A model generated the notes under the pieces. The model did no database searches. It was given only the letters and a program-made list of their open reading frames with translations, and was not told the origin of the DNA. Positions 1 through 23,960 of a stretch of 28,288 bases of DNA are shown here, piece by piece. Each line of letters starts with the position of its first letter. Position 1 is the first letter of the stretch. The position numbers were made by a program, and so were the translations under genes. The stretch comes from a virus, in the IMG/VR virus record IMGVR_UViG_3300045051_000625, positions 1 through 28,288 of that record, one strand, 5' to 3'.

Positions 1-960
1 CATACGGGTTTGCCGCAGCCGGTCGCGCATGTTCGTCTGCTCTTCCAGGCTGGAGGTGCGCACGATGCCGTAGGACGACGGGCAGCCGGTTGTGGCGTAG
101 ATGCACGGCCAGATGCTCGTCAAGACTTGCCACGCACCGTAGCGAATGGTCAAGACCCACTTAACTTCCATGCCAAGCTGCTCACTCAGTCGCTCCAGAT
201 TGTTGACGATGTTCGCCAGGATCGCGTAAACGGTACCGCCGCTGGTATTGATCGATGTGCCATTCAGGTCAATCACGATGCTGTCAACGGCGGCGCAGGC
301 GACACCCGTGATAGCGTCGCGTTTGTTCTGCTGAATTTGGCGATCAAGCCCATTGAACTGGATATAGCCCTGGCTTCCCGCCGTCGTACCCGCGTTGCCG
401 GTGTAGGTGTTCCTGGCATAGTCGCGCGCGTAGCCGTTGAACAGTTCGGCGATCTTGTACTCGTACTCGCTCTGGAAAGCGCGCTGCCAGTTGACCGGCC
501 CCGGCGTGGGTATGTCACCCCCCGGCTGACCCAGCAGCACGTTGTCACGAAACTCGCCCCGGTTGATCAACTGACCAGCATATTTGACGTTCAGGACTTG
601 GCTCATGCGCCCCTGCTGCCCGAACGGGAAGGTTTGTCGGCAGAGCTTGAACGAACCGACCGTGGGCCAATCAGCGCAAGCGCCAGTCGGCTCGCTGCCA
701 CTTGAGGCCAGTTGCCCGGTGAAGATCGGGTAGATCTCATTGGTGTCAACCGACTTGACAACAGGAATGCGCCCGGCGATCCCCTTCGGCATGATCATCG
801 CATTGATGATCTGCTTATTCATGCCAAGCGTGCCCAAAAGTCCGCCAGGGCCGTGAAGCGGACTGCCGGCCGTCGTACCGGCGTCCTTCGTGGTCATTGA
901 CGCCATAGCATTCATCAAACGAATGGCGTCAGGCGATAGCTGTGGCGTCGCGAGTTGCAT
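1..960 (-). CDS. Major capsid protein, 3' end cut off by the window edge
   Basis: An open frame of 320 codons with no stop runs leftward off the window. It starts at an ATG (960-958) preceded by AGGAGT seven bases upstream. I read it as the major capsid protein. The N-terminus (residues 25-49) carries a GPGGLLGT motif, followed by a segment on the pattern GRIPVV..(V/S)DTNEIYP..TG and SGSEPTGAC, which I recall from capsid proteins of this type, then a body rich in aromatic residues and a NRGEF segment near residue 135. It lies 26 bases after the protease-scaffold gene, the usual place for the capsid gene. The capsid call rests on pattern memory and gene order, not on a search. The C-terminus is outside the window. 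The same N-terminal motif occurs in the protease-scaffold protein. Confidence 0.68.
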   Translation of the reverse strand, partial: MQLATPQLSPDAIRLMNAMASMTTKDAGTTAGSPLHGPGGLLGTLGMNKQIINAMIMPKGIAGRIPVVKSVDTNEIYPIFTGQLASSGSEPTGACADWPTVGSFKLCRQTFPFGQQGRMSQVLNVKYAGQLINRGEFRDNVLLGQPGGDIPTPGPVNWQRAFQSEYEYKIAELFNGYARDYARNTYTGNAGTTAGSQGYIQFNGLDRQIQQNKRDAITGVACAAVDSIVIDLNGTSINTSGGTVYAILANIVNNLERLSEQLGMEVKWVLTIRYGAWQVLTSIWPCIYATTGCPSSYGIVRTSSLEEQTNMRDRLRQTRM

Positions 961-986
961 AGCGTTACTCCTGTGTATAAACCGTT

Positions 987-3881
987 TTAACTATTCGACT
1001 GCGGCGGAGCGAACGGGAATGGCTGCCAGCCGCCGAATGTGCCGTCGGGATTTTGGGTGTAGAGCTGCGGGAAAGTCGCAGCGGCGGCGGCGGCGAACGG
1101 CCGCGCAGGATCGTTCGGCACTTGCGGCTTCGTCAGATCAGGCGGCGCAGCAGGAGCGCCCTTGAGCGCGGCTTCTACGTCGTCAGGATTAACCACGGCC
1201 GGCTTGTTCCCTTCCAGCTCCGCAAGCCGGGCTTTCAGCGCCGTGATCTCTGCCTGCTGTGCATTCTCCGCTTTGGTGCGCGCATAGCCCATGCCCTTGA
1301 CCGCCTCATCCATCGCAGCCATTCGCGTCGAAATGTCACTGCCGAACGACTGAATAGCCGCCTGAAGCGCCTGGGTCAGCAGCGTCTCAAAATCAGACAC
1401 GCTCATATCACCGATGTATTCGGTTTCTTCGGCGGCCTCGTCGTCCGTGCCCGCCTCCATCTCAGGCGGTGCATTCGGGTCAGGAGCGCCAGCGTCCATC
1501 GGAGGGGGCGGCGCTTTCTCCATGACCGGCATCATGGCCGCCTTGATCGCTGTCGCCACAGCCGCCCACGGATCGGCGTCCTCACTCTTGAACGCGATCC
1601 GCTGTTCGCTGGCGCTCTTGTCGGCTTGCTCCATTTGCGCCAACTGTGCAGCGGCGGCCTCAGGCGGTACGCCTTTGTCATGCATATCTGTCAAGTACGC
1701 CTTGACCCGCGCATCGTAGGTTTGCTGATCCATCTTGTGATCCTTTACTGTCAGACCAGTAAACAGATTGCTGGCCCGGCCATACTTAATCGGCACAACT
1801 GACCGCTCGAAACGTCGAATATTCTCGTATTCCCCCGCCGCGTTCGGTTCGAATGGCGGGTGAAAGAAGCCCGGCGAAAGCTCGTAATCCCCGGCGCTCT
1901 CAGCAAACGCCCTGCCCAGTTCAGCGCTCTTGAACGTACCGCTTTCAATGCTCGTGCGCCCGATGACTGTGGAGTAGTCGCACTGCCCAATGTCAACGCC
2001 CGGCCCCCACGGTTGCACGATGTCAAACGGATCGGGGTTGCCAAGATGCCAATAGCGCAGCGGCCCATACTGTTTCGTAGCAGTCATGCGCGCCGCGTCC
2101 TGGTCTAATGCTTTGGTGGTAATGATCTCGCCGTCGCGATCGCGGTACGCTGTAGTGGAGCGCGCTATCCAGCGGTAGGAGCCGTCGGCGCTCTTGAACA
2201 CTGTGAAAGATTGCGGTATACTTGCGCTAAGAGGTGAAGCTATGCCATCAATCAAAACCGCCGCTCGGGCTGCTGCGGCATTCTTCGGCACAACTGCATG
2301 GGAGTACGCATGTCCTGCGTGTGGATATGTCTGGGTGCTTTGGGCCGCGCCGCGCGAAAACCGATCGGCGCGCTGCCTCAATTGCAGATCAGTATTTGAC
2401 ATCACCGTGACTGGCGATACAGTTGCGGTCGCGCCAGGAACTTCCACGCCCGCGACGAACTGGATATGGGGCGACGGCTGATACGCCTTCTCGCTCGGCA
2501 GCGGCATCTTCTCGCGCTTGTAGAGCGCCCGCAGTTTGCTGATCGCTTCGGCCTTGTTCGGCCCGCTGTACACGTTCCCCCTGAATCCCGAATGCAAAGC
2601 GGCCCATGCGCTGCCCATAAGCCCATGATCCGGCGTACCACTGCGCTTAACCTGGAGATGCCAGGTGGTAGGTTTCGTGCGATCCTCCACGATCAGATAA
2701 TCGTCGGGATTGCCAGCTTTGTAGGACTTCGCCAGCGTGCCGACGTTCGCACGTCCGTGGGCCATGCCCGCGCCTCCGACCCGCTTGCGCCGCTGTCCAA
2801 TGACACTAGGCCGGCTGGTATCGACACGCGACGCCGGCGCTTGACGCGGTGCGGGCGGTTGCCTGCTGGACTGCTGCTGCTGACGTTCGGCTTCGCGCCG
2901 GGCGCGATCCTGTTCATGCTCCGCTAGTCGCCGCGCCCGGTCTTGCGCGTGTTCCTGCTGGCGCTGTTTGCGATCGGCCTCGTGTTCGGCCTGACGTTGC
3001 GCCCTATCCGCCGCGTGCGATGAGGCGCTGCCGCTGCTGGCCTGCTTGCCGCCTCCTGCGGATTGCTTCTTAGCACGAGCTTCAGCAGCCTTCTTGCGGC
3101 GTTCGTCAGCAGCCTGCTTACGCTGTTGTGCGGCTGTTTGGCGCTGTGCCCGCGCACCCGTCCGATCGCGCGCTCCGCTGATCGTGTCGCCGGCCCGCCC
3201 TGCGTCTCCCTGCTTCGCGGCGTTCAGAGTTGCGCGACCTGATCCGGTCAACCGGTAACTCCCATCGGCAGCCTGTTCGACGAGGCCGGCCTTGAGGAAA
3301 CCGCCGCGTGCGATTGCGCCGGCGTCCGCCTGTTTGCCGCTGCGCAGCGCCTCAAGCGCGGCTTGTCCATCGGGAGCGATGCCAAGGCCGCTCAGCACCT
3401 TACTGCTGTTCTCTGCTTGCTTCTTAGCGCGATCTTGTGCGCGCTGCTCAGGCGTAACCGCCGCTTTCTTGGGTTTCGCCGGTTTGCGGCCCCTCGCGCC
3501 TGCTTTCTTGCCTTTGGGCTTCTTCCCTGACTGCGATGCATCGCACGGCCCATAGCGCCCGTGTACGTTGCACAGGTTGCCCCTGATCCGTGTGATGCCA
3601 GGAGCGATCTGTTCTTTGGTCGCAACACCGCAGGTGCAATCTTTGTTCTTCGTCGGGTTGCCCCACTTGCGGCCCTTGCGCTTGCTCATTCCAGGCGTGC
3701 CAAGCAAGCCCCCCGGCCCATTCAGCATTGGCCCTACGACTGTGCCAGCGTCCTTGCGTTCAGGCAGCGCGGCGAAGTTCGTCTGTTTGGCCCAGCGCTT
3801 TGCGAACGGCAACTTGCGCGCAAAGGCCATTCTCTGTTGCGCTCTGGAGGCAAATGGTTTAGTTGTAATCGTTTCTGACAT
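987..3881 (-). CDS. Prohead protease fused to a probable scaffold, 964 aa
   Basis: Order from the N-terminus: a basic stretch; the capsid-like motif at residues 43-67; a cysteine cluster (CTCG, then CNVHGRYGPC) near 76-110; a long K/A/R/Q-rich disordered or coiled-coil stretch (about 115-350); a compact domain with YLIVED, WHLQVKR, GLMGSAWAALH and NKAEAI (about 390-460); a linker; then an HK97-type prohead protease domain (about 550-690) with YRDRDGEI, YWHLG (candidate catalytic His) and LSPGFF (candidate catalytic Ser). The C-terminal part is acidic and Ala/Pro-rich with a coiled coil near 875-905, as expected of a scaffold cleaved during head maturation. Catalytic residues are inferred from family layout. 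Start: the ATG at 3881 has no Shine-Dalgarno and directly follows a terminator-like hairpin. An in-frame TTG at 3887 or ATG at 3830 is possible, but the conserved KDAGT segment argues for a start upstream of 3755. Confidence 0.75.
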   Translation of the reverse strand: MSETITTKPFASRAQQRMAFARKLPFAKRWAKQTNFAALPERKDAGTVVGPMLNGPGGLLGTPGMSKRKGRKWGNPTKNKDCTCGVATKEQIAPGITRIRGNLCNVHGRYGPCDASQSGKKPKGKKAGARGRKPAKPKKAAVTPEQRAQDRAKKQAENSSKVLSGLGIAPDGQAALEALRSGKQADAGAIARGGFLKAGLVEQAADGSYRLTGSGRATLNAAKQGDAGRAGDTISGARDRTGARAQRQTAAQQRKQAADERRKKAAEARAKKQSAGGGKQASSGSASSHAADRAQRQAEHEADRKQRQQEHAQDRARRLAEHEQDRARREAERQQQQSSRQPPAPRQAPASRVDTSRPSVIGQRRKRVGGAGMAHGRANVGTLAKSYKAGNPDDYLIVEDRTKPTTWHLQVKRSGTPDHGLMGSAWAALHSGFRGNVYSGPNKAEAISKLRALYKREKMPLPSEKAYQPSPHIQFVAGVEVPGATATVSPVTVMSNTDLQLRQRADRFSRGAAQSTQTYPHAGHAYSHAVVPKNAAAARAAVLIDGIASPLSASIPQSFTVFKSADGSYRWIARSTTAYRDRDGEIITTKALDQDAARMTATKQYGPLRYWHLGNPDPFDIVQPWGPGVDIGQCDYSTVIGRTSIESGTFKSAELGRAFAESAGDYELSPGFFHPPFEPNAAGEYENIRRFERSVVPIKYGRASNLFTGLTVKDHKMDQQTYDARVKAYLTDMHDKGVPPEAAAAQLAQMEQADKSASEQRIAFKSEDADPWAAVATAIKAAMMPVMEKAPPPPMDAGAPDPNAPPEMEAGTDDEAAEETEYIGDMSVSDFETLLTQALQAAIQSFGSDISTRMAAMDEAVKGMGYARTKAENAQQAEITALKARLAELEGNKPAVVNPDDVEAALKGAPAAPPDLTKPQVPNDPARPFAAAAAATFPQLYTQNPDGTFGGWQPFPFAPPQSNS
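2194..2222 (+). promoter_or_regulatory. Sigma70-like promoter for the nested zinc-ribbon ORF
   Basis: TTGAAC (2194-2199), a 17-base spacer and TATACT (2217-2222) lie 20 bases before the ATG of the nested plus-strand ORF, inside the minus-strand protease-scaffold gene. The -10 box matches consensus at 5 of 6 positions, the -35 at 4 of 6, and the spacing is ideal. Activity is inferred. Confidence 0.5.
2242..2481 (+). CDS. Nested antisense zinc-ribbon protein, 79 aa
   Basis: This plus-strand ORF lies wholly inside the minus-strand protease-scaffold gene. It has a CPACGYVW knuckle near residues 24-31 and a CLNCRSVF knuckle near 45-52, giving C-x2-C, about 17 residues, C-x2-C: a typical zinc-ribbon layout. 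A promoter-like sequence (2194-2222) and an AGAGG site seven bases before the ATG support expression. On the other strand it faces residues of about 467-547 of the protease-scaffold protein, a stretch with no domain signature between two recognisable domains. Most long plus-strand ORFs across the late genes are antisense shadows; this one stands apart because motif, ribosome binding site and promoter coincide. A chance ORF cannot be excluded. Role unknown; small zinc ribbons in phages often bind nucleic acid or host proteins. Confidence 0.5.
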   Translation: MPSIKTAARAAAAFFGTTAWEYACPACGYVWVLWAAPRENRSARCLNCRSVFDITVTGDTVAVAPGTSTPATNWIWGDG

Positions 3882-3885
3882 AAAC

Positions 3886-3920
3886 AAAAACGCCGCAACA
3901 GATGGTTAGTCTGTTCGGCG
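3886..3920 (-). terminator. Rho-independent-type terminator after the HNH-Lar-Com cassette
   Basis: Read on the minus strand, CGCCGAACAGA, a 7-base loop and TCTGTTGCGGCG form an 11-bp stem with one bulged G (3920-3910 with 3902-3891), followed by TTTTT (3890-3886). This is a canonical intrinsic terminator. It ends four bases before the ATG at 3881, so it leaves no room for a Shine-Dalgarno site. It could instead act as an attenuator or translational control hairpin for the protease-scaffold gene. Confidence 0.68.
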
Positions 3921-4335: not shown

Positions 4336-4525
4336 TGACGCTCTTTACTGACGCGGCGCGACGGTTCCACCGTTCAAGCGCCTGATCAATGCCATACGCA
4401 ACCGGGCCTTCGGCTTGACATGTCATGCACACAACCCAATGCTTAATGCTCCCACTATGTATCCTCATACGAGTAGCGCCACAGAATGGACACGGCGAGT
4501 ACTCTTTTAACTCAATCTTATTCAA
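4325..4525 (-). CDS. Lar-like restriction alleviation protein, 66 aa
   Basis: The protein has the Lar family pattern: a short lead, CPFCG (residues 12-16), then VVCMTCQAEGP and a C-terminal ALERWNRR. Lar of the Rac prophage eases type I restriction by favouring modification of incoming DNA; a similar counter-restriction role is inferred here. The likely start is TTG (4525), whose last two bases and the next A form the TGA stop of the HNH gene (TTGA overlap), with AGAGG seven bases upstream. No better start lies further in, because the CPFCG motif follows within 12 residues. Translation is probably coupled to the HNH gene. Confidence 0.68.
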   Translation of the reverse strand: MNKIELKEYSPCPFCGATRMRIHSGSIKHWVVCMTCQAEGPVAYGIDQALERWNRRAASVKSVNAK

Positions 4526-5121
4526 CGACTGGCCTCTGCGTCCAAAGCGCGATAGTCGATTATCTGTATGCCTTTACGAATGTTACACACAGCACATAAA
4601 GGCTGGAGGTTCTCAATGTTGTTCGATCCCCCGCCTACGACCGGAATAACATGGTCAACAGTCAGCGGCTTTTGTTCACCGCAACAGAGACAACGATAAT
4701 CGTACCTAGCACACAATGCACGCCATTCGGCAATCGTATAACTTCCGCCGTTCGCACGGCGAAGCACGCGCCGCTGATGTGAACGGCGAACATTGAATTC
4801 AGGGTGTGCCTTTGACCATTCGCGCTTGGCGGCATTCATTTGCACACGATTGGCCTTCCTGTACTCACGCTGATACGAGCTATACTTTTCACGATTTCTC
4901 GCAGTCCACTCGCGATTGTACGCCAATCTTTGTTCTTTTCTTGCCGCCTTATACTCAGCATCAGCCCGGCGTAGGCGGTCAATGTTTTCTTGACGATATT
5001 CGTGAGCACATGGCTTGCAATAGGCCGCGATGCCCCCCGACCGATTCTTGTTCTTGTAATACTCAGAGAGGGGTTTATCCACGCCGCATTTACTACAGCG
5101 TTTATGGGGTATAATGTCCAT
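4522..5121 (-). CDS. HNH endonuclease with N-terminal zinc motif, 199 aa
   Basis: The N-terminus has CSKCG and CKPC pairs (about residues 9-40), a zinc-binding motif often seen in free-standing phage HNH proteins. A long, very basic helical stretch (about 45-125) follows, then an HNH domain with CLCC, LTVDHVIPVVGGG, NIENLQPLCAVCN. The DH of TVDHVIP and the N of CNIRKG are the expected catalytic and metal-binding residues. The ATG at 5121 is chosen because AGGAG lies seven bases upstream and a promoter sits at 5188-5193; in-frame codons further up would run through that promoter. It looks like a homing-type or cargo endonuclease placed between the gp10-like and protease genes. Its sequence looks more AT-rich than its neighbours. 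Confidence 0.85.
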   Translation of the reverse strand: MDIIPHKRCSKCGVDKPLSEYYKNKNRSGGIAAYCKPCAHEYRQENIDRLRRADAEYKAARKEQRLAYNREWTARNREKYSSYQREYRKANRVQMNAAKREWSKAHPEFNVRRSHQRRVLRRANGGSYTIAEWRALCARYDYRCLCCGEQKPLTVDHVIPVVGGGSNNIENLQPLCAVCNIRKGIQIIDYRALDAEASR

Positions 5122-5187
5122 GTCGCATCTCCTGAACAGTTGCGGCCATGCACTCGGCTGTTGACAGCAGCGCGAGTGCTTTACACT

Positions 5188-5216
5188 ATTATACCACAAA
5201 TACGGCATTACAATCA
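5188..5216 (-). promoter_or_regulatory. Extended -10 promoter for the HNH-Lar-Com cassette
   Basis: On the minus strand TGGTATAAT gives a perfect -10 box (5193-5188) with the TG of an extended -10. The sequence 17 bases further up (TGATTG, 5216-5211) is only a weak -35, as is common for extended -10 promoters. It lies about 67 bases before the HNH start, in the gap after the gp10-like gene. Confidence 0.62.
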
Positions 5217-5687
5217 CTTATTTTCAGCGTCCAAAGCCCTTTGGAAGATTGCCCCCACTTGAGCTTGCCACTTTTGCGCAATCACCTTATTCCAGTTGCG
5301 CGCCGCCGTGCCTGGGTGATGCACCACGCGCGCCACAACCTTGTTTTGTCCTTTACTTCCCGCCCGGCTCATAATCTGATTGGGCAGCGTCTTACTCTGA
5401 AACGGCGTGATGAAACGCAGAATGCCGCGCGCCTTCTTGGGCCTGATCTCATGCGCGCGAGTGCCGACATTCAACATTCCAAACACTTCATCATCGGTTG
5501 CGATCTCGCGCGTGTACTGATCGGGAGATGTGATCTTGAAATCCGGTCTGTGCTGCCAGGTTTGCGTGACAACGCCAAAATCAACCTTAATATCTTTCGC
5601 AACGCCTGTGAGCGTGTTCTGAATGGCGCGCTCCATTTGCTGCGGCTTGAACACGCTGCCTTTAGGCTTAATGATCGATGCTGGCAC
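5214..5687 (-). CDS. HK97 gp10-like head-tail or tail-completion protein, 157 aa
   Basis: The middle and end carry GTRAHEIRPKKARGILRF and HHPGTAARNW, the pattern typical of the HK97 gp10 family of neck or tail-completion proteins, which join head and tail. The length is normal for the family. The start is GTG (5687), whose G overlaps the TAG stop of the preceding gene, with CTGGAG five bases upstream. In many phages this gene lies after the capsid gene; here it precedes the protease and capsid genes. The family call comes from motif memory. Confidence 0.65.
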   Translation of the reverse strand: MPASIIKPKGSVFKPQQMERAIQNTLTGVAKDIKVDFGVVTQTWQHRPDFKITSPDQYTREIATDDEVFGMLNVGTRAHEIRPKKARGILRFITPFQSKTLPNQIMSRAGSKGQNKVVARVVHHPGTAARNWNKVIAQKWQAQVGAIFQRALDAENK

Positions 5688-22926: not shown

Positions 22927-23209
22927 CGCGCTGATCCTTGTCATCGCCGGCGCTGCGGCCCCCGGCTCTGTGGCCTACTGGCATCTGCCGGATATGGCGC
23001 GGCTGGCTTCATATCTGTTCGTACTGGCGCTGGCGTATGTCGTATACAACCGACTGCCGATCGACGCTCCGATTGATCAGGAACAGGCGGAGCGGCCACT
23101 AATCGAGCCGACAATCCGTCTGGACTACTTGCCGATGTCAGTCGTGACAACGCGACTGGACACGCCGGAAGAGACGGATGCCTACACAGGCGTTACGAGG
23201 CGATTATAG
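22913..23209 (+). CDS. Membrane protein with long polar tail, 98 aa
   Basis: GTG start (22913) overlaps the preceding gene by 14 bases with AAGG upstream. An N-terminal hydrophobic helix (ALILVIAGAAAPGSVAYW) and a second (LASYLFVLALAYVVY) are followed by about 50 polar residues (DQEQAERPLIEPTIRLD). Unknown role; the tail could face the cytoplasm. Confidence 0.65.
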   Translation: MNRANALILVIAGAAAPGSVAYWHLPDMARLASYLFVLALAYVVYNRLPIDAPIDQEQAERPLIEPTIRLDYLPMSVVTTRLDTPEETDAYTGVTRRL

Positions 23210-23210
23210 T

Positions 23211-23960
23211 ATGCCGCGCAAGAACTTTGTCATTGGAATTTATATGATACGCAACACTGCAACTGACATGCTCTATATCGGCAGCAGTGCTGGTAAGTTT
23301 GGTATCCAAGGCCGATGGGATATGCATCGCATTGATTTACGGTGTGGGAAGCATTCTAATCCGAGATTACAAGCATCGTGGAACAAACATGGAGAGGACG
23401 TATTCGTATTCATGGTGATTGAATCGGCTGATCCTTCTCAGCTCATAGAGCGAGAGCAATACTGGATTGATCGCTATCGAAGTGAAGGAGCGAAATTATA
23501 CAACATGCTGCCAGTCGCCGGTTCTCGTTTGGGTGTTCCCACATCAGATGAGGCAAAGCGCAAGCTGTCAGACAGCCTCAAAGGCCGTCCTATCACAGAT
23601 GAGACGATACGAAAACGATGCATTACACGAAATTCCATCTATTCCTTTGTTGCCCCTGATGGAACAGAGCACCATAATATTGTCAATCTAAGGTCATTTG
23701 CTGACAAACGCGGGTTGAATAGCAATGCACTTCGTCTCGTTTGGAACGGTGAAAATAAGCATCACAAGGGATGGGTCAAACTAGGCAATACCCTGCTTTG
23801 GTATGTCGTAACACACCGTTCAAGCGGTGAGATAGTTCGTTTGCATAAAGGACAATTACGATCCTTTTGTATCGAACACCATATAGACACAAGCAACTTA
23901 CTCAAGATACTAAAGGGAAAGTTAAGATATGCAAACAACTGGACAATCTCAACTGAATGA
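23211..23960 (+). CDS. GIY-YIG homing endonuclease with NUMOD-like domain, 249 aa
   Basis: The N-terminal GIY-YIG nuclease domain shows GIYMI (residues 9-13) and LYIGSS, then an arginine in GRWDMHR and a glutamate in IEREQYW, the expected catalytic set. After it comes SDEAKRKLSDSLKGR, a NUMOD3-like DNA-binding repeat, and a C-terminal part with NLRSFADKRGLNSNALRLVW and a second similar unit near QLRSFCIEHHIDTSNLLKIL, like NUMOD1/HTH repeats of homing enzymes. It looks more AT-rich than its neighbours, a sign of transfer. It stands free, with no intron seen; its end overlaps the next gene by 32 bases. Confidence 0.88.
   Translation: MPRKNFVIGIYMIRNTATDMLYIGSSAGKFGIQGRWDMHRIDLRCGKHSNPRLQASWNKHGEDVFVFMVIESADPSQLIEREQYWIDRYRSEGAKLYNMLPVAGSRLGVPTSDEAKRKLSDSLKGRPITDETIRKRCITRNSIYSFVAPDGTEHHNIVNLRSFADKRGLNSNALRLVWNGENKHHKGWVKLGNTLLWYVVTHRSSGEIVRLHKGQLRSFCIEHHIDTSNLLKILKGKLRYANNWTISTE

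Follow-up and report, generated by a model that had tools for sequence, protein, structure and literature searches.

The window, by which we mean the whole stretch of DNA that was analysed, comprises 28,288 nucleotides (positions 1 to 28,288) of the viral record IMGVR_UViG_3300045051_000625. Genes for terminase, portal, protease and capsid follow one another in that order, with the smaller of the two proteins considered here adjoining the protease. By eye, an ORF at 4522–5217 (minus strand), between the portal-side genes and the protease, reads like what we take to be an HNH endonuclease, and another at 23178–23960 (plus strand) reads like a protein that is presumably a GIY-YIG homing endonuclease. 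The initial annotation had placed a peptide shared by capsid and protease-scaffold at 814–888 and 3681–3755; these coordinates are correct, but the peptides are encoded on the minus strand and the plus strand reads differently. The features of the two genes are as follows.

1–960, minus strand: capsid protein gene (ORF), truncated by the left end of the window; 320 aa in the window
814–888, minus strand: capsid copy of the shared peptide, residues 25–49, sequence KDAGTTAGSPLHGPGGLLGTLGMNK
820–855, minus strand: capsid core HGPGGLLGTLGM, residues 36–47; kept, with variants, in all 39 capsids listed
886–888, minus strand: Lys25 of the capsid, proposed P1 residue of a putative cut
898–939, minus strand: predicted N-terminal capsid helix, residues 8–21 (secondary structure of a low-confidence model)
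987–3881, minus strand: protease-scaffold gene (ORF), 964 aa from the ATG at 3881 or 966 aa from a TTG at 3887
1212–1400, minus strand: predicted long helices, residues 828–890 (secondary structure of a model), presumed scaffold part
1746–2210, minus strand: S78-like protease domain, about residues 558–712 (profile alignment)
1875–1877 and 2046–2048, minus strand: likely catalytic residues Ser669 and His612, respectively, invariant in 16 of 16 sequences
3198–3464, minus strand: predicted winged-helix domain in the basic extension, residues 140–228; pLDDT about 92–96
3681–3755, minus strand: protease-scaffold copy of the shared peptide, residues 43–67, sequence KDAGTVVGPMLNGPGGLLGTPGMSK
3687–3722, minus strand: protease-scaffold core NGPGGLLGTPGM, residues 54–65
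3753–3755, minus strand: Lys43 of the protease-scaffold, proposed P1 residue of a putative cut
3756–3881, minus strand: N-terminal helical module, residues 1–42; two predicted helices, pLDDT about 80

We treated the smaller protein as the capsid on the strength of its position beside the protease and of fold matches to a low-confidence model: when the modelled capsid of a relative (pLDDT 42.5) was used in a fold search, 50 of the 50 PDB rows listed were HK97-fold shells, with Z-scores of 5.1–6.6. Comparison of the clade's capsid profile with eight HK97-type capsids by hhalign gave 0.3%, in a type of comparison that distant capsids often fail, and neither Pfam nor PHROGs gave a useful match to the clade members scanned. 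The window holds 320 residues of a protein that is about 470 residues long in relatives. From its N-terminus, this protein consists of a short predicted helix, a Lys, a leader of 10–13 residues rich in Gly, Ala, Thr and Pro, the sequence HGPGGLLxxPG and the capsid body. The helix was modelled in a relative, at residues 10–21 of that protein, and the AF2 models of both capsid and protease-scaffold are poor at the motif.

As judged by profile alignment, the larger protein is an S78-like prohead protease. An hhalign comparison of its protease domain with eight HK97-type proteases gave 92% over 152 columns, compared to 0.1% for a reversed control and 27.6% when the window's clade alone was used. 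In the alignment, the Ser of ELSPGF (Ser669) coincides with that of GMSVGF in HK97 and the His with NH, and we take His612 and Ser669 to be the catalytic pair. No protease family was among the Pfam or PHROGs matches of 16 protease-scaffold members at E 0.1. Ahead of the enzyme lies a basic N-terminal extension of more than 500 residues with the predicted winged helix inside it; a fold search of the model gave a best Z of 7.7 against MarR-type regulators and was filled by winged-helix matches, and it thus speaks to the winged helix rather than to the protease fold. The basic extension might act inside the head as a DNA-binding protein. The first 40 residues of four proteases (L184, L013, L194 and L034) resemble PHROGs 1375 or 5320, two families of small phage proteins without an assigned function, and look as if they had once been an independent protein that was joined to the protease. 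The protease-scaffold is also mosaic: the tree of its catalytic domain is at odds with the capsid tree, and its N- and C-terminal parts travel together. Distances for the N-terminus correlated at 0.91 with those of the C-terminus, 0.74 with the portal, 0.57 with the capsid and 0.55 with the catalytic domain. A first reading of the trees, in which the protease N-terminus tracked the capsid, was rejected on these correlations, which indicate that the N-terminus follows the phage backbone and that the catalytic domain is mosaic.

The protease-scaffold shows an order of Lys, leader and motif like that of the capsid, at the start of its long basic extension. As claimed initially, the two 25-residue peptides (protease-scaffold residues 43–67 when numbered from the ATG at 3881, or 45–69 from the TTG at 3887) are the same at 18 of 25 residues. 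They share 46 of 75 bases, and the third base differs at 12 of the 18 identical residues, reproducing the divergence at third codon positions that had been reported. A local alignment of the two copies scored 94, compared to a maximum of 67 in 1000 shuffles, and when the best ungapped 25-mer was found for each of the 276 pairs drawn from 24 window proteins, the capsid/protease-scaffold pair had 18 identities and the runner-up pair had 11. Chance origin of the shared peptide is ruled out by the shuffle scores and by this comparison of window proteins.

To what extent the peptide recurs depends on the breadth of the comparison. Within the window's clade, the core (L)HGPGGLLxxPG was present in both proteins of all 16 related contigs in which both N-termini were readable (14 after removal of near-identical ones), and three protease-only fragments (L030, L034 and L040) carried it as well. 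A pattern scan of 18 whole records found two matches in 15 of them and one in three, with none for a backward-pattern control. The records with single matches were a contig that lacks the start of the protease gene (L031), one whose capsid reads GPGSLL (L194) and an outgroup (L045). No third copy of the motif on other proteins was found in these 18 records.

Among 13 phages, the ten-residue core of the protease had a mean pairwise identity of 0.886, compared to 0.572 in the 60 residues that follow and 0.69 in the catalytic domain, and the corresponding core of the capsid had a value of 0.858, compared to 0.782 for residues 61–320. The core is the most conserved part of the protease-scaffold, above the catalytic domain. 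For the 12-codon core in 14 phages, pS was 0.50 among capsids and 0.58 among proteases, whereas pN was 0.12 in both, which upholds the proposal in the initial annotation that the peptide is kept by selection. The pS between capsid and protease cores was 0.56 within a phage and 0.59 between phages. The similarity of these values indicates that neither the capsid nor the protease copy was recently derived from the other, again as proposed initially, and rules out recent gene conversion between them. Within-phage identity of the two copies was 11.18 of 13 residues, compared to 10.60 for shuffled pairs (p 0.007; 11 distinct pairs), a difference that is confounded by kinship; co-variation was set aside as evidence because related phages confound it and because L010 and L241 go against it.

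None of eight HK97-type (S78) controls had a comparable peptide shared by capsid and protease, and we therefore rejected the idea that such sharing is a general habit of S78 phages. The weak matches seen among the controls were equalled by 9 of 200 shuffles for HK97 and by 5 of 200 for Buldak. In HK97 (L196 1349–3186), residues 9–45 of the protease and 76–118 of the capsid, around the K103 cut, align weakly through DGKQGxF, probably by chance.

A wider pattern search over IMG/VR gave 31 new loci, comprising 25 distant capsids with the motif, one protease (L241) and five other frames. The distant capsids (25 loci within L211–L240) bear an N-terminal HGPGG[LF][LF]xxPG, and from their sequences they and the window's clade look like one large capsid family. 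Where an upstream ORF was available, it was a protease in 22 of 22 cases (E 1e-8 or better). The 20 distant proteases that could be read from the 5' end included 18 without the motif (15 distinct, as judged by identical sequence) and two with it, namely L234 (HGPAGLLSQPGL) and L241 (HGPGGLLSTPGL). The outgroups L045 and RBC095 also carry the motif in the capsid only. The expectation that the motif recurs in both proteins was thus borne out within the clade (16 of 16 contigs) and not outside it, where a total of 17 distinct phages (the 15 distant ones plus L045 and RBC095) have the capsid copy and a protease without one. Homologues with the motif in a single protein, which the initial annotation had regarded as evidence against a common role, accordingly exist outside the clade and not within it. 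Four viral contigs (L221, L225, L228 and L236) share a near-identical 106-codon frame with HGPGGLLPYPGQ, which may be a contaminant common to them or a frame that is not coding.

The presence of the motif in a broad set of distant capsids and its absence from most of the neighboring proteases indicate that the capsid has long had the motif and that the protease acquired it secondarily. In a capsid tree with a midpoint root, protease copies occur in the window's clade, in its sister L241 and in L234. The last of these branches within the same group as L215 and L231, two phages whose proteases lack both an N-terminal extension and a copy, indicating that the copy goes with the extension and not with the catalytic domain. 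From these sequences, the protease copy seems to serve the extension rather than the enzyme. The motif came to the protease together with the basic extension, either by one gain followed by losses or by several gains. At L241 (6516–10365), the protease keeps HGPGGLLSTPGL and the core of the adjoining capsid is degenerate (HGPNALFNTPGL), which speaks against strict co-evolution of the two copies. Thus, the motif is a capsid feature that some proteases took up and not a general shared requirement, and the sharing of this old capsid arm peptide with the maturation protease is real, selected and limited to a clade.

Searches of other collections added few relatives. At the limits used, INPHARED searches with the capsids of L013 and L045 and with the L013 protease found no match; the L045 protease matched 26 INPHARED records over query residues 104–282, mostly ahead of the catalytic domain. 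A capsid-profile scan of genome contigs found no relative, and a pattern scan of genome contigs included, among the 120 matches listed, at least two real capsids (L098 and L153), with 118 being chance frames by eye. L098 and L153 come from MAGs labelled as different phyla and have near-identical phage DNA, with a 100% protease match in both, suggesting that one or both bins are probably contaminated or that the phage is shared. A sequence search of the PDB gave nothing useful. In the open-licence literature, no paper combined GPGGLL with capsid, the terms GPGGL, capsid and phage returned one unrelated vaccine paper, and a search for shared capsid–protease motifs or arm mimicry returned precedents but no such peptide.

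A basic residue precedes the motif in the capsids. In all 39 of them, Lys (37 cases) or Arg (2 cases) lies 11–14 residues before the motif His, with D, H or A directly after it, and the stretch from there to the motif is free of K and R. Of 19 protease copies, ten have a Met start exactly 12 residues ahead of the first motif residue, five have Lys at −11, L234 has it at −13 and L241 at −12; the two odd copies have their last K or R at −7 and −4. This Lys or Arg is a plausible cut point for the S78-like protease. The HK97 capsid is cut after K103, before S104, according to PMC10275583, and the HK97 record does have Lys then Ser at these residues. The authors of PMC8569155 give cuts at R128/L129 in phi12 and K87/Q88 in SaPIbov5 Ccm, describe these sites as sharing little else and are in doubt as to whether the same protease made the second cut. 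D3 does not fit, as the 113-residue scaffold domain counted by its authors would end on Ala rather than on a basic residue (residue 113 of the record); its protease is annotated as ClpP-like, another annotated type. The conserved Lys might be kept for another reason. The simplest reading of these sequences is that a leader of about ten residues and HGPGGLL are meant for a free N-terminus, which cleavage would create in the capsid and the module-bearing proteases; the other proteases would have it directly from their start codon.

The explanation that we favor, although tentatively and at somewhat less than an even chance, combines a cut after this Lys with a common docking site for the arm that capsid and protease-scaffold share. 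The S78-like protease encoded by the phage itself would cut after the Lys and remove 25 residues from the capsid (residues 1–25, including the helix at 8–21) and 43 from the protease-scaffold (the helical module at 1–42 plus Lys43). Both chains would then begin with the same leader, the capsid at Asp26 and the protease-scaffold at Asp44, and the MSDP-type proteases would skip the cut, with translation starting at that place. The exposed HGPGGLL arm of either chain would dock in one site, most likely under the capsid shell, and by copying the capsid's own arm the protease-scaffold would be targeted to the procapsid and held there. A protease cleavage site and an assembly tag, which had been offered as separate possible jobs for the peptide, are compatible on this model, as a Lys cut and an HGPGGLL docking peptide both fit the sequences. 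A fuller version, in which the protease-scaffold enters the procapsid and acts there by presenting a copy of the processed capsid arm, enzyme and shell subunits compete for a single arm-binding site and one enzyme makes both arms by one type of cut, we consider rather unlikely as a whole. The 17 distinct phages that manage without a protease copy count against the arm model.

Several known systems provide precedents. According to PMC10275583, the N-arm of HK97 Prohead II takes about the place held by the scaffold in Prohead I, indicating that arm and scaffold can succeed each other in one site. HK97-type phages resemble the window's clade in having an S78-like protease gene beside the capsid gene, an N-terminal capsid piece before the N-arm and K or R at the cut (here a proposed one). 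In the clade, by contrast, the capsid piece is only some 25 residues long, protease and presumed scaffold form one protein, and capsid and protease have the peptide in common. In phage T4, IPIII bears a capsid targeting sequence that both directs this protein to the inside of the prohead and is a substrate of the prohead protease, and the authors suggest, as speculation, that propeptides of the protease may likewise target the enzyme (PMC9026906). As here, the T4 targeting sequences are a short N-terminal peptide common to several head proteins; they differ in having been shown by experiment, in being on internal proteins and in being cut by gp21 after L/I-x-E (PMC9026906). In the window's clade, by comparison, the peptide is on capsid and protease only, with no other cargo in 18 records, and targeting and cut are proposed from sequence. 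The P2 capsid protein gpN has a helix, a disordered link, a cut at 31/32 and an N-arm, and gpO unites protease and scaffold in one protein; the removed N-terminal capsid piece is short (31 residues), as proposed here (PMC7552001). The P2 protein differs in having an N-terminal protease domain and no long extension, and that paper reports a search of gpO for a motif like the capsid arm, with none found (PMC7552001). The HK97 arm and scaffold, T4 targeting and the P2 proteins together lead us to favor a Lys cut with common docking. Proteins are docked inside the HK97-fold shells of encapsulins by short terminal cargo-loading peptides. Unlike the peptide described here, those are not known to be common to the shell's own arm or to be processed.

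If the motif were a docking tag without processing, both copies would bind the same partner (the shell, the portal or each other), the N-termini would stay intact and the Lys would be a contact. The length of the motif (at least 12 residues), its conservation above that of the catalytic domain, its retention by MSDP-type proteases that have nothing to remove and its association with the extension are all consistent with docking alone, which nevertheless leaves unexplained why translation starts at the place of the Lys in ten proteases and why the leader is free of K and R in 39 of 39 capsids. We regard this alternative as unlikely. A cut within the core itself (for example LL[GA]|xPG), or a core that acts as a pseudosubstrate plugging the protease until the procapsid is complete, would account for the motif in both proteins by making both substrates. 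The residue after LL is small (G, A or S) in the 17 capsids and 17 proteases tabulated, and the region lies roughly at the junction of scaffold domain and N-arm in HK97, with model residue 53 corresponding to HK97 residue 126 in a low-confidence model. Distant capsids, however, have T or N at that place, and the HK97-type sites described so far carry K or R in the P1 position and share little else (PMC8569155), whereas the core contains neither. A core cut would moreover release no more than about 20 residues from MSDP-type proteases and leave the extension joined to the enzyme, and the L215 and L231 proteases do without a plug. Cutting or plugging at the core is slightly less likely still in our judgment. 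Finally, the spacing between KDAGT and the core is identical in capsids and four proteases (a fifth, L034, reads KSAGA), suggesting a common origin, but a neutral relic of duplication or recombination with the capsid gene is very hard to reconcile with strong purifying selection, synonymous sites near saturation and a motif that is the most conserved part of the protein.

The combination of a Lys cut with common docking makes an exact prediction, namely a mature capsid that begins at Asp26 and a protease-scaffold that begins at Asp44, and related phages with and without the protease copy provide a natural contrast. Few phages have a maturation protease whose recruitment and cleavage sites are known. 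A broad capsid family, whose clade members scanned go unrecognized by Pfam and PHROGs, can be identified by this 12-residue peptide in the arm and, if the proposed role is true, HGPGG would serve as the signature of a large capsid superfamily that lacks annotation. Mimicry of the shell arm by the protease, if true, would represent a new mechanism for recruiting a prohead protease and timing its action, and would offer a tool for loading proteins into such shells.
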